From assembly GCA_023910605.1 (NCBI GenBank), contig JAAVVV010000001.1, positions 486,698 through 550,697 of the forward strand: DNA of 64,000 bases, read 5' to 3'. The first letter of the stretch is position 1. The number at the start of each line of letters is the position of its first letter. The notes below the pieces were generated by a model. That model was not told the origin of the DNA, did no database searches, and saw only the letters and a program-made list of their open reading frames with translations. The position numbers were made by a program, and so were the translations under genes. Shown here piece by piece: positions 52,583 to 58,367 of this stretch. The DNA comes from Bosea sp. (in: a-proteobacteria). GTDB lineage: Bacteria; Pseudomonadota; Alphaproteobacteria; Rhizobiales; Beijerinckiaceae.

Positions 52583-53989
52583 ATGGCCGCTTTCACCGAT
52601 TACATCGTCAAGGACATGTCGCTTGCCGCCTTCGGGCGCAAGGAGATCGACCTCGCCGAAACCGAGATGCCCGGCCTGATGGCCATCCGCGAGGCCTATG
52701 GCGCCAGGCAGCCGCTCAAGGGCGCGCGCATTGCCGGCTCGCTGCACATGACGATCCAGACAGCCGTGCTGATCGAGACGCTGAAGGCGCTGGGCGCCGA
52801 CATCCGCTGGGTGTCGTGCAACATCTTCTCGACCCAGGACCACGCCGCCGCCGCCATCGCCGCCGCCGGCATCCCGGTCTTCGCCTACAAGGGCGAAACC
52901 CTGACCGAGTACTGGGATTACACCGCCAGGCTGTTCGACTGGCATGGCGGCGGCACGCCGAACATGATTCTCGATGATGGCGGCGACGCCACGATGCTGG
53001 TGCATTACGGCCTGCGCGCCGAGCAGGGCGACGTGGCCTTCCTCGACAAGCCGGCGTCGGAAGAAGAGGAGATCTTCTTCGCGCTCATCAAGAAGATGCT
53101 CGCCTCCAGGCCGAAGGGCTGGTTCGCCGAGGTCGCCGCCGCGATCAAGGGCGTGTCCGAAGAAACCACCACGGGCGTGCACCGCCTCTACAAGCTCGCC
53201 GAGCAGGGCAAGCTCCTGTTCCCGGCTATCAACGTCAACGACGCCGTCACCAAGTCGAAGTTCGACAACCTCTATGGCTGCCGCGAGAGCCTCGTGGACG
53301 CCATCCGCCGCGGCACCGACGTGATGATGGCCGGCAAGGTGGCCTTCGTCGCCGGCTTCGGCGATGTCGGCAAGGGCTCGGCCGCCTCGCTGCGCCAGGC
53401 CGGCGCCCGCGTCCTGGTCTCGGAGGTCGATCCGATCTGCGCGCTCCAGGCCGCCATGGAAGGCTATGAGGTCTGCACCATCGAGGACGCCCTGCCGCGC
53501 GCCGACATCTATGTCACCGCAACCGGCAACAAGGACATCATCACGGTCGACCACATGCGCGGCATGAAGGACCGGGCGATCGTCTGCAACATCGGCCACT
53601 TCGACAACGAGATCCAGGTTTCGGGCCTCAAGAACTTCAAGTGGAACAACATCAAGCCGCAGGTCGACGAGATCGAGTTCCCGAAGGGCAACCGCATCAT
53701 CCTGCTCTCCGAAGGCCGCCTCGTGAACCTCGGCAACGCCATGGGTCACCCATCCTTCGTGATGTCCGCCTCGTTCTCGAACCAGACGCTGGCGCAGATC
53801 GAACTGTGGACCAACCCCGGCAAGTATGAGCGCAAGGTCTACACCCTGCCCAAGCATCTCGACGAGATGGTCGCCGCCTTCCACCTCGAGAAGATCGGCG
53901 TGAAGCTCACCAGGATGACCAGGGAGCAGGCCGACTACATCGGCGTGCCGGAACAGGGCCCGTTCAAGCCCGATCACTATCGCTACTGA
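52583..53989 (+). CDS. ahcY: S-adenosyl-L-homocysteine hydrolase (AhcY)
   Basis: A 468-residue NAD-dependent enzyme cleaving S-adenosylhomocysteine to adenosine and homocysteine, recycling the product of methyltransferases such as TrmB and others. The NAD-binding segment [27 protein letters not shown] is clear near residues 251-277, the substrate motifs [12 protein letters not shown] and [10 protein letters not shown] are present, and the C-terminus ends [15 protein letters not shown] before ATG 52583 is a good ribosome site. It is placed after the PTS genes, as in rhizobia. Confidence 0.97.
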
Positions 53990-54021: not shown

Positions 54022-54259
54022 TACATCTCGGTCCTTCCTGGCCGTCGCCCGAAAAGGGTGGCGGCCATGCCCGTTTTTACGCGCCCTTAAGCACTTCCCG
54101 GCGGAATCGAAGGCTGTTTAGTGTGGTGCAGTGATTCGGGGTTTGCGCCCTGACCGTCCTGCGCAGCGGCCTTGTCTGGCCACGGCGCATGCGGCCGTGC
54201 GCCGACGGCGCCGTGAGCTGCGTGGCGTGCATTCGCGTCGGAATGGGCCTCGAGAGGGA

Positions 54260-56785
54260 ATGGCGGCATTGTCAGGGAAGAGCGCAGGGCCATGGCAGGC
54301 GACGAAAGGTGAGGGCGCCGCGCCGCGCCGCTGGCTGCGCGCCGTCGCTTCCGGCTGCGTCTCCACCGCCGCCCTCATCGCGGCCGCCGGCCCGGCCCGC
54401 GCCTTCGGCGTCGATCAGGTGAAATCGGTCTTCCCCGACGCCTACAGCGCCTTCGGCGTTTCCACCGTCGTCGGGCTTGCCGTGTTCTCCGTCACCCTCG
54501 CCGTCCTGCACATCCGCGAGCGCACGCGCTGGGTCAGGCGCGAGGCCAAGCTTAATGCCCAATTGCACGAGGCCGTCGGGCGCGCGGCGCAGGCCGAGGT
54601 GTTCAGCTCCACCGAGGATGAGGTCACGGTGACATGGGCCACGCCTTCGGCGCAGGCCGAGCTTCACGGCGCGGCCGATTTCCTGCTGCAGAACGGCGTG
54701 CGCGTCTCGCCGCTCGCCTTCGGAAGCTGGGCCGCGGCCGAGCATGTCAAGGCGCTGGGCGATGGCGTCGACCTGCTCAAGGCGAGAGGCGAGCCTTTCG
54801 ACCTGGGCCTGCACACGCGCGATGGCCGTTTCGTCGAAGCGCGCGGCCGCGCCGTGGCTGGCCAGGCTGTGATGCATCTGCGCGATGTCTCGCAGACGCG
54901 GCGCGCCCTGCGCGAGATGGAGCTGGAGCGCGACCGCCTGCTGGGCCTGAACCAGCGGTTCGATGCGTTGCTGGACGCCAGCCCGAGCCCGGCCTGGCTG
55001 CGCGGGCCCTCGGGCGAGCTGGTCTGGGTGAACGCGGCCTATGCCCGCGCGGTCGAAGCGCCCGGCGCGGAGGACGTGGTTCGCCGCAGCGTCGAACTCA
55101 TGGACCGCGAGCAGCGTGAACGCGCCGTCCGCGCCCGCGCCAGCGGCGAGGCCTTCGCCATGCGCGCGCCAACCGTGGTGTCCGGCCAGCGCCTCTTCTT
55201 CGACCTGAGCGAGAGCCCGACTGCCCAGGGTTACGCCGGCCATGCGATCGATGTCAGCGAACTCGAGGTGCTGCGCGCCGATCTGGCCCGGCAGATGGAG
55301 GCCCATGTCCGCGTGCTGGACCGGCTTCCGACCGCCGTGGCGGCCTTCGATTCGCGCCAGCGCCTGTCGTATCGCAACCTGGCCTATGAGAAGCTCTGGT
55401 CGCTCGACCCCGCCTATCTCGATTCGCGCCCCAGCGATGGCGAGATCCTCGACCGGCTGCGCACGGAACGCCGCCTGCCCGAGGCCGGCGCCCACAAGGA
55501 CTGGAAGGCGGAGCGGCTCAAGGCCTACACCGCGATCGAGACTACCGAGGACTGGTGGTATCTGCCCGATGGCCGCGCTATCCAGGTCACCACGAGCCCC
55601 AATCCGCAAGGCGGCGTGATCCATCTGTTCGATGACGCCACCGAACGCTTCTCGCTCGAATCCAAGGTCAAGGCGCTGTCCCGCACCCAGCGCGAGACCC
55701 TGGACGGCCTGCGCGAGGGCGTGGCGGTGTTTGGCTCCGATGGCCGCCTGAAGCTGAGCAATCCGGCCTTCGCGACGCTGTGGAAGCTCTCGCCGACCCT
55801 GCTCGCCACCCATCCCCATGTCGATGAGGTCATGGCCCTGTGCCAGCTGCTGAGCCCCGTCGAGGAGGCCTGGACGGTGCTGCGCGGCGCGGTCGTCGGC
55901 GTGCGCGAACGCCGCGAGGATCATGCCTCGCGCATGGTGCGGCTCGATGGCTCAGTGCTGGATTGCGCGCTGGCGCCCCTGCCCGACGGCGCCACCTTGC
56001 TGACCTTCGCCAATGTCACCGATACGGTGAACTTCGAGCGCGCGCTGACCGAGCGCAACGACGCCCTGGTCAAGGCGGCCCAGCTGCGTGACACCTTCGT
56101 GCATCATGTCTCCTATGCGCTGCGTTCGCCGCTCACCACCATCATCGGTTTCGCCCAGCTCATCGGCGAGGAGATCGCCGGACCCCTCAACCCGCGCCAG
56201 CGCGAATACGCCCAGCTCATCCTGCGTTCGTCAGGCACGCTTCTGACCATCATCAACGACATTCTCGACCTCGCCTCGATCGACAATGACGAGCTTCAGC
56301 TCGATCTTGCGGAAACGGATGTGACGGAGCTTGTCGCCAGCGCGGCACGCGGGCTGGAGGACAGGCTGGCCGAGACGGGCATCGTGCTGAAGCAGGAGAT
56401 CGCGCCCGATGCCGGCCGGATCGTCTGCGACCCCAAGCGCATCAGGCAGGCGCTCTACAATCTCATGTCCAACGCCATCGGCTTCTCGCAGGGCGGGCAG
56501 GTCATTGAGGTCAGCGCGGCGCGCCAGGGCGGCGATGTCGTGTTCTGCGTGAGCGATCATGGCCGCGGCATTCCCGCCGACTTGCAGGACCGCATCTTCG
56601 AGCGCTTCGAGACCTACACCACAGGCTCGCGCCATCGCGGCATCGGTCTCGGCCTCGCCATCGTGCGCTCCTTCATCGAGCTGCACGGCGGAACGGTGGC
56701 GATCGACTCACGCATGGGCGAGGGCACCACGGTGACATGCCGCGTGCCGGTCGGCTCGCAATCGCTCGCGGACGCCGCCGAATGA
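54260..56785 (+). CDS. divL: DivL-type cell-cycle histidine pseudokinase (Tyr in place of phosphoacceptor His)
   Basis: An 841-residue membrane-anchored sensor kinase. Hydrophobic segments near residues 33-48 and 68-87 are followed by PAS-like regions (roughly 120-230, 235-370, 380-480 and 500-600). The kinase region follows: the H-box reads HHVSYALRSPLTTII, so the position aligned with the phosphoacceptor His of ordinary kinases is Tyr619. The N box is NLMSNAIGFS, then SDHGRGIP and GIGLGLAIV. Caulobacter DivL has the same Tyr substitution and controls CckA in the CtrA pathway. Context (ahcY to tsaE/amgK) matches rhizobial divL. The start is uncertain; ATG 54260 has GAGAGGG close by. Confidence 0.82.
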   Translation: MAALSGKSAGPWQATKGEGAAPRRWLRAVASGCVSTAALIAAAGPARAFGVDQVKSVFPDAYSAFGVSTVVGLAVFSVTLAVLHIRERTRWVRREAKLNAQLHEAVGRAAQAEVFSSTEDEVTVTWATPSAQAELHGAADFLLQNGVRVSPLAFGSWAAAEHVKALGDGVDLLKARGEPFDLGLHTRDGRFVEARGRAVAGQAVMHLRDVSQTRRALREMELERDRLLGLNQRFDALLDASPSPAWLRGPSGELVWVNAAYARAVEAPGAEDVVRRSVELMDREQRERAVRARASGEAFAMRAPTVVSGQRLFFDLSESPTAQGYAGHAIDVSELEVLRADLARQMEAHVRVLDRLPTAVAAFDSRQRLSYRNLAYEKLWSLDPAYLDSRPSDGEILDRLRTERRLPEAGAHKDWKAERLKAYTAIETTEDWWYLPDGRAIQVTTSPNPQGGVIHLFDDATERFSLESKVKALSRTQRETLDGLREGVAVFGSDGRLKLSNPAFATLWKLSPTLLATHPHVDEVMALCQLLSPVEEAWTVLRGAVVGVRERREDHASRMVRLDGSVLDCALAPLPDGATLLTFANVTDTVNFERALTERNDALVKAAQLRDTFVHHVSYALRSPLTTIIGFAQLIGEEIAGPLNPRQREYAQLILRSSGTLLTIINDILDLASIDNDELQLDLAETDVTELVASAARGLEDRLAETGIVLKQEIAPDAGRIVCDPKRIRQALYNLMSNAIGFSQGGQVIEVSAARQGGDVVFCVSDHGRGIPADLQDRIFERFETYTTGSRHRGIGLGLAIVRSFIELHGGTVAIDSRMGEGTTVTCRVPVGSQSLADAAE

Positions 56786-56813: not shown

Positions 56814-58367
56814 GTGAGCCGGGATGCCGCCCTCAAGCGCTCGTGGAGCCTCGCCTTCGGCAGCCAGGCCGAGACCTTGCGCCTCGCCGACGACATCGCC
56901 GGCATCGTGCGTCCCGGAGACATCATCGCCCTGTCCGGGGATCTGGGCGCCGGCAAGAGCACCTTCGCGCGCGCGCTGATCCGGCATCTGGCAAACGATC
57001 CGCGGCTGGAGGCGCCGAGTCCCACCTTCACCCTTATGCAGTCCTACGAGACGCCGCGCGGCCGCGTCGTCCATGCGGACCTTTATCGCCTGCGTGGGCC
57101 GGACGAACTGGTCGAGCTCGGCTTCGATGAAGCCTTGCACGATGCCATCGGGCTTGTGGAGTGGCCGGACCGGGCCGGCGAGAGCCTCGATGCCGCCAGC
57201 CGGCTCGACATCGTGTTCGATCTCGATCCCGGTGCCGGGAACCAGACCGGGGATGAGCACCGGCTCGTGACGCTGATCCCCGGCGCGGCCTGGGCCGAGC
57301 GGCTTGGCCTGACGCTCGGCGCCCGCCAGCTCATCGACCGCGCCGGCTGGGGCGAGGCGGAGCGCCGCCACATGCTCGGCGACGCCTCGACACGGGCCTA
57401 TGAGCGACTTGTCCGCGCCAATGGCGAGACCGCGATCCTGATGATCTCGCCGCCCCGCCCCGATGGGCCGGCCGTGCGCGGCGGCAAGCCCTACAGCGCC
57501 GTCGCGCGGCTGGCGGAGCGGGTCGACGCCTTCGTGGCCATCGACCGCGGCCTGCGCGCGCTCGAGCTGTCGGCCCCGGAGATCTACGCCAGCGACCTCG
57601 TCAACGGCTTGCTGCTGATCGAGGATCTCGGATCGGAAGGCGTCCTGGGCGCGGACGGCCTGCCTGACCGCGCGCGCTACGAGGTGGCGGTGGAGGTGCT
57701 GGCCGCCATCCACGCCCAGCCACTGCCCACCATCCTGCCGGTGGCCGAGGGCCGCGAGTACGTCATCCCCGATTATGACGCTGAGGCCCTCGCCATCGAG
57801 ACGGAGCTGCTGCTCGACTGGTATGCGCCTCATATCGCGGGCGTGACGCTGCCTGCCATCGCGAGGGCGGAGTTCAGCCGCGCCTTCGCGCCGCTCTTCG
57901 ACACCCTGGCCAAGGGCCAGCGCACCTGGGCCTTGCGCGATTACCACTCGCCCAACCTGATCTGGCTGCCTTCCCGCGAGGGCCTTTGCCGGATCGGCAT
58001 CATCGATTTCCAGGACGCCGTGCTCGGCCATCCGGCCTATGATGTCGTGTCGCTGGGGCAGGATGCGCGCGTGGACGTCGCGCCAGAGCTCGAATTTCGG
58101 CTGCTCTCGCGCTATGCCGCCGCTCGCCGCGCGCGTGACGCATCCTTTGACCTCGGCGCCTTCGCCGCCGCCTATGCCATCATGGGCGCGCAGCGCAACA
58201 CCAAGATCCTCGGCATCTTCGCCCGGCTCGACAAGCGCGACGGCAAGCCGGCCTATCTCAAGCATCTGCCGCGCATCGAGGCCTATCTGCGCCGCGATCT
58301 GGCCCATCCCGCGCTGTCCGGGCTGAGGGCCTGGTACGAGGCCTATCTGCCGCGCCTTCTGGGCTGA
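56814..58367 (+). CDS. Bifunctional TsaE / aminoglycoside phosphotransferase-type kinase (AmgK-like) fusion
   Basis: A 517-residue two-domain protein. Residues about 1-160 are TsaE, the ATPase of the tRNA t6A complex: Walker A GDLGAGKST at 42-50, then SPTFTLMQSYE and HADLYRL. Residues about 175-515 are an APH-fold kinase like AmgK, with catalytic-loop LRDYHSPN (Asp376, Asn381) and metal-binding Asp398 in IIDFQD. AmgK phosphorylates anomeric MurNAc/GlcNAc during peptidoglycan recycling, and the next gene is MurU-like, which fits that reading. A GTG start is used, 28 bases after divL. Fusion of these two functions is frequent in alphaproteobacteria. Confidence 0.9.
   Translation: MSRDAALKRSWSLAFGSQAETLRLADDIAGIVRPGDIIALSGDLGAGKSTFARALIRHLANDPRLEAPSPTFTLMQSYETPRGRVVHADLYRLRGPDELVELGFDEALHDAIGLVEWPDRAGESLDAASRLDIVFDLDPGAGNQTGDEHRLVTLIPGAAWAERLGLTLGARQLIDRAGWGEAERRHMLGDASTRAYERLVRANGETAILMISPPRPDGPAVRGGKPYSAVARLAERVDAFVAIDRGLRALELSAPEIYASDLVNGLLLIEDLGSEGVLGADGLPDRARYEVAVEVLAAIHAQPLPTILPVAEGREYVIPDYDAEALAIETELLLDWYAPHIAGVTLPAIARAEFSRAFAPLFDTLAKGQRTWALRDYHSPNLIWLPSREGLCRIGIIDFQDAVLGHPAYDVVSLGQDARVDVAPELEFRLLSRYAAARRARDASFDLGAFAAAYAIMGAQRNTKILGIFARLDKRDGKPAYLKHLPRIEAYLRRDLAHPALSGLRAWYEAYLPRLLG

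Follow-up and report, generated by a model that had tools for sequence, protein, structure and literature searches.

The closest described counterpart of the protein considered here is DivL of Caulobacter crescentus, for which binding of phosphorylated DivK (DivK~P) and control of CckA are known and which exhibits neither kinase nor phosphatase activity (PMC4211667). At its phosphoacceptor position stands a tyrosine, Tyr550, which is described as conserved among DivL homologues except for an Ala in Magnetospirillum, and the recognition of DivK~P by DivL is presented as a key question partly answered by the PAS region (PMC4211667). In HisKA kinases, the roles of the neighbouring residues have been separated, mutants of four of them (CrdS, HK853 and two more) showing that the acid at position +1 is required for kinase activity only, and the Thr or Asn at +4 for phosphatase activity only (PMC3510030). 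As the Tyr is a published hallmark of DivL, the half of the present observation relating to this residue was already known.

The window, i.e., the whole stretch of 64,000 nucleotides that was analysed, contains a divL gene (Table 1), for which an alternative GTG start at 54131, leading to a longer product, is possible. The protein exhibits several PAS domains followed by a DHp and a CA domain (Pfam PAS_7, PAS, HisKA and HATPase_c), with which the predicted model agrees (30-row alignment, mean pLDDT of 80.5, pTM of 0.35). Pfam matches near the start of the PAS region are to PAS_8, PAS and PAS_4, PAS_7 matching in two stretches, and the model presents strand-helix folds beyond the Pfam PAS matches, from about residue 121, as well as a helix at residues 63-116. 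The H-box, FVHHVSYALRSPL, is the translation of nucleotides 56096-56134.

Table 1. Position of divL, of its domains and key codons, and of the flanking genes in the window.
Feature	Position	Strand	Remarks
ahcY	52583..53989	+	upstream of divL; in conserved gene order
divL	54260..56785	+	ATG start, 841 residues; pseudo-histidine kinase with several PAS domains
Putative membrane helix region, residues about 63-90	54446..54529	+	hydrophobic stretch; inference
PAS region, residues 232-592	54953..56035	+	Pfam
DHp (HisKA) domain, residues 605-680	56072..56299	+	Pfam, dN/dS, model
Tyr619, phosphoacceptor position (Caulobacter Tyr550)	56114..56116	+	codon TAT; alignment
Ala620, +1 position	56117..56119	+	codon GCG; Glu in 59/59 other genus members
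Ser623, +4 position	56126..56128	+	Ser in 67/67 genus members
Leu653 (Caulobacter Ala582, HK853 Val294)	56216..56218	+	His in 59/59 other genus members
CA (HATPase_c) domain, residues 724-831	56429..56752	+	Pfam; N-box NLMSNAIGFS without the usual Lys
tsaE-amgK fusion	56814..58367	+	downstream of divL; in conserved gene order

Judging from its domains, its match to 4q20, its gene order, and the presence in the genome of CckA, ChpT, CtrA, PleD and a DivK-like gene, this 841-residue protein is a DivL orthologue, in line with the family assigned to it in the sequence-only reading. The structure of Caulobacter DivL (4q20) is the best PDB sequence match (E 3.5e-43, first of 63) and is also at the top when the model of the protein is compared with the PDB by VIA-align (Z 24.9, 230 residues aligned, rmsd of 4.8); by Foldseek E-value it ranks third, after two long chains of several domains for which the TM-scores are low. 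As no DivL model is present among the best 25 of the 81 NCBIfam families matched by the protein, NCBIfam neither supports nor contradicts the name. The order HPr-ahcY-divL-tsaE/amgK-murU-addB is found in 8/8 genomes of the subclade comprising the source genome, complete or as far as the contig ends, and divL is flanked by ahcY and tsaE in 25/26 tested loci of the remaining genus. Of five class genomes tested, three (G446, G320 and G391) have the order ahcY-divL-tsaE; in G371 and G322, the 10.5 kb examined did not show it.

The partners of the relay are recognised by NCBIfam models with bit scores above the respective cut-offs, namely CckA (1160.5 vs 1000), CtrA (423.6 vs 350), ChpT (282.6 vs 240) and PleD (651.5 vs 474). 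For CckA, a candidate at 2763738-2766168 fell below the NCBIfam cut-off and the 865-residue protein (locus L183) was taken instead. A DivK-like single-receiver gene adjoins pleD in the source genome; its product matches no NCBIfam family at E 1e-30 and is presumably DivK, given the likeness to that protein, its receiver domain and its neighbour. A strong match to it is found once in 57/58 genomes searched and twice in G371.

Compared with Caulobacter DivL (4q20; PMC4211667, in part), the source protein has in common the acceptor Tyr, the PAS array, the DHp-CA fold and the DivK-docking residues Arg553 and Thr557, kept as Arg622 and Thr626, and the two genomes are alike in possessing the CckA-ChpT-CtrA relay and a DivK-like gene. 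It differs by Ala for Glu at +1, Ser for Thr at +4 and Leu for Ala582, and in the docking residues Tyr562 and His579, which are not kept and correspond to Phe631 and Tyr650; since most sampled DivL sequences have Phe and Tyr there too, these two replacements are no argument against membership of the DivL family.

Both parts of the earlier observation, a Tyr at the phosphoacceptor position and an Ala next to it, are borne out, so that the protein has neither the acceptor His nor the Glu or Asp at +1 of an active HisKA kinase. Among the 22 HisKA matches of the genome, DivL alone deviates, all 21 others having His followed by Glu or Asp, which argues against chance. Tyr-Ala is found in seven further genomes of the subclade and is thus no sequencing slip; their DivL is 74-76% identical to the source copy in six of them and 72% and 79% for two pieces in the seventh. 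A Tyr in all orthologues of the clade, proposed beforehand as a check, is present in 67/67 genus members. At +1, the genus splits into Ala (8/8 in the subclade) and Glu (59/59 elsewhere, with DivL at most 56% identical to the source copy), and the motif SYELR, named beforehand for other rhizobial copies, proves correct for the 59 other members of the genus. In these 59, the acceptor Tyr, the Ser at +4 and the N-box Gly are the same as in the source copy (59/59 each), as are the ahcY and tsaE flanks in 25/26 tested loci, and the differences lie at +1, where they have Glu, and at 653, where they have His (59/59 each).

The wider comparison comprised 161 DivL rows, i.e., all 67 genus members found, 32 of the 42 other genera of the family with one row each, 24 other genomes of the order, and 38 rows hand-picked from 167 class genomes with a match, of which certain ones may not be true DivL orthologues. 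For the family genera, 30 rows were chosen from the matches listed and two (G115 and G091) were added from the class-wide matches; L070 and L071 were left out as inferred duplicates of L072 and L075, with which they agree in the length of both contig and match. A scan of genome contigs with a single protein query gave two loci. The acceptor residue is Tyr in 151 rows, His in three, Phe in two and another residue in five, and at +1, 131 rows have Glu, 17 Gln, eight Ala and two Gly, with Val, Asp and Ser occurring once each. The eight Ala rows form a single branch with a support of 100 in a FastTree tree, in which 58/158 inner branches are weak and the placement of a His-bearing family is unsure (support 45). 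The two Phe cases come from genera of the family outside the source genus (G115: L135/L189; G091: L136/L190), in which the tyrosine hydroxyl is absent too; the whole gene order is retained in G115, and only tsaE and murU are seen in G091, downstream. In-frame TGA codons noted for certain distant matches were set aside, those of L135 and L046 lying just past the last conserved residues, like a normal C-terminal stop, and the aligned portion of L132-L134 being without stop.

The copy of DivL is ordinary, and what is unusual is the loss of the +1 acid in a subclade of eight genomes, together with changes in DivK; beyond these, the finding consists mostly of a known feature in an ordinary DivL gene. 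On the sequences compared, the +1 Ala is lineage-specific, and so is the change in DivK. In the open-licence literature searched, by titles, the beginnings of abstracts and selected passages, no report was found of the Ala variant at +1, of the altered DivK or of a DivL with His.

With respect to the catalytic residues, the motif H-E-x-x-T/N has become Y-A-x-x-S in the source protein, Arg622, Pro624 and Thr626 being retained. Active HisKA kinases also carry a Lys in the N-box, where the source protein has Gly741, as do 67/67 genus members; the ATP-binding domain, previously described as otherwise complete, hence departs from the usual pattern at this position and may bind ATP weakly. The same position (56480-56482) is also Gly in 29/32 other family genomes. 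As regards HK853 and CrdS (PMC3510030), the DHp and CA fold and the general frame of the H-box are common to these kinases and the source protein, whereas His, an acidic +1 and Thr or Asn at +4 are replaced by Tyr, Ala and Ser. The suggestion that the change from Glu to Ala might end residual phosphatase chemistry does not fit the division of labour described in that paper, where the +1 acid serves the kinase and +4 the phosphatase (PMC3510030). The residue at +4 was not altered by the subclade, Ser623 being common to the entire genus, and Caulobacter DivL, inactive already, has Glu at +1 in the 4q20 alignment. Ala620 is therefore best read, from these comparisons, as the lineage-specific release of a kinase-only residue, dispensable after the loss of the His, and not as a loss of phosphatase. 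That the +1 acid can be dropped after the His is lost helps to split the residues of the H-box involved in catalysis from those involved in docking, where Arg, Pro and Thr stay.

Taken as a whole, the protein is very probably the sole DivL orthologue of the genome, i.e., a probably membrane-anchored PAS pseudokinase placing no phosphate on a histidine and most likely acting as a sensor. By analogy with Caulobacter, DivK~P binding, control of CckA and an absence of kinase and phosphatase activity would be expected; a pseudokinase acting on CckA, as anticipated in the sequence-only reading, appears very likely considering the orthology and the partner genes found here together with the mechanism described, in the parts consulted, in PMC4211667. 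As in Caulobacter, the DivL of the source genome would most likely be a sensor with a histidine-kinase fold, of which the DHp would dock phosphorylated DivK, and this docking would alter the effect of DivL, stimulating or restraining, on the CckA-ChpT-CtrA relay.

Two other accounts of the gene as a whole are far less credible. It is very unlikely that the protein is an active kinase using as phosphoacceptor either Tyr619 or His615 or His616, one helical turn earlier. DivL was reportedly named a tyrosine kinase in an early report (by Wu, in 1999), and His616 and His615 occur in 123/161 and 98/161 homologues, respectively, but the source protein possesses neither an acid at +1 nor a Lys in the N-box. 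Alignment with Caulobacter DivL, one of the checks suggested at the outset, pairs Tyr619 with Tyr550 and both His with Gly-Asn, so neither His is the phosphoacceptor. Moreover, Caulobacter DivL is without autokinase activity and its Y550H variant regains no autonomous activity, although this variant does become phosphorylated in the presence of DivK~P and ATP (PMC4211667). That divL would be a decaying gene, as could be suggested by the several catalytic positions gone and by a divergence faster than that of DivK or CckA, is extremely improbable, considering that 0/67 genus genomes have a stop inside the DivL match and that dN/dS lies between 0.05 and 0.3 for all parts tested. Estimated with a Nei-Gojobori script on 28 subclade pairs (21 for the N-terminal part), dN/dS within the subclade is 0.051 for the DHp, 0.116 for the PAS region, 0.219 for the CA and 0.299 for the N-terminal part; the value for the DHp points to strong purifying selection, and a domain so firmly conserved speaks against decay.

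Two further explanations concern the Ala only. Neutral drift, where the +1 site would have been free since the loss of the His and Ala fixed by chance with function unaffected, is an evenly balanced proposition. The site underwent at least 15 changes on the tree of the 161 homologues, with the states E, Q, A, G, V, D and S, and GAG to GCG is a single base change; on the other hand, Glu is retained in 59/59 other genus members and 131/161 rows overall, so that most lineages still keep the site under constraint, and Ala is fixed in 8/8 subclade genomes, with strong purifying selection acting on the DHp. The other explanation, compatible with the identity as DivL, is a coordinated remodelling of the DivL-DivK interface, in which compensating changes would retune the sensing of DivK~P, and this we consider possible though doubtful. 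In detail, DivL Glu620 and His653 and the acid at DivK position 12 would all have been lost, with small or hydrophobic contacts around the phospho-site replacing charged or polar ones, a scheme regarded as just as doubtful. DivK was sampled in 8/8 subclade genomes, in 20/59 genomes from the remainder of the genus and in 30 further genomes, the latter chosen mainly for a DivL departing from Tyr-Glu, with a numbering anchored on the contacts named in PMC4211667. Position 12 (Caulobacter numbering), beside the acid pair, is Ala in 8/8 subclade genomes and acidic in 50/50 others (Glu in 46, Asp in 4), including Glu in 20/20 tested genomes of the remaining genus. DivL position 653 is Leu in 8/8 subclade members vs 1/153 others; it aligns with Caulobacter Ala582, for which a contact with Leu13 of DivK, the neighbour of position 12, was modelled (PMC4211667 section 10), and with the specificity site Val294 of HK853, among the residues rewired according to the PDB titles of 4jas and 4jau. 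The DHp identity of DivL falls from 0.961 inside the subclade to 0.693 towards the remaining genus, compared with 0.972 to 0.888 for a control. This control is a PdhS-like kinase, which we assume to be linked to DivK, with His-Glu kept in 28/28 and a score below the PdhS cut-off.

Against such remodelling, all the changes sit on a single long branch, along with 8 fixed differences in DivK and 81 in CckA, so their co-occurrence may be due to chance, and AhcY too drops from about 94-98% identity within groups to about 76-81% between them, so that a large step is not special to DivL. In addition, reciprocal covariation of DivL +1 and DivK 12 across the class was rejected, the DivK acid being retained in 20/20 genomes with another non-acidic DivL +1 (Gln, Ser, Val or Gly), and an enrichment in specificity positions is not significant, 2/5 changed having a chance probability of 0.12. 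On these four grounds, coordinated remodelling is a lead and not a result, and it seems unlikely that the phospho-sensing DivL-DivK contact was rebuilt in the subclade by Glu620Ala, His653Leu and the change of DivK 12 to Ala, with a different contact chemistry for the phosphate. A natural lineage where an acid near the phosphate is lost in both DivL and DivK nonetheless provides a ready pair for swaps. Other DivK changes fixed in the subclade (L175, L211-L218) are Ala42Thr, Ile94Met and Arg95Leu (Caulobacter numbering), all at positions that most of the 50 others conserve. As for AhcY, its drop may mean that the subclade is a genus of its own or that AhcY had a different history.

Elsewhere in the class, some DivL homologues depart from the usual pattern in other ways. 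In one alphaproteobacterial family (f66: G446 and relatives; L267-L289), 25 genomes were searched, of which 24 had a match and 23 were readable, and in 23/23 of the latter the DivL homologue has a His (SHELRTPL); in two members examined further (L186 and L187), the N-box Lys, the other CA boxes and the order ahcY-divL-tsaE are all there. Since a Tyr throughout, with Ala in Magnetospirillum, is what PMC4211667 describes, this His-bearing DivL may be catalytically live. A His-bearing homologue also occurs in G371, from another family, where the 10.5 kb examined did not show the order ahcY-divL-tsaE. Finally, in G471, G563 and G356, the DivL matches stop near residue 590, in frames of 593-648 residues, and are thus without the kinase core; in G356 (L208), ahcY lies directly upstream of the match, and a published kinase-less DivL (PMC2877005, in the part consulted) is consistent with these three cases.
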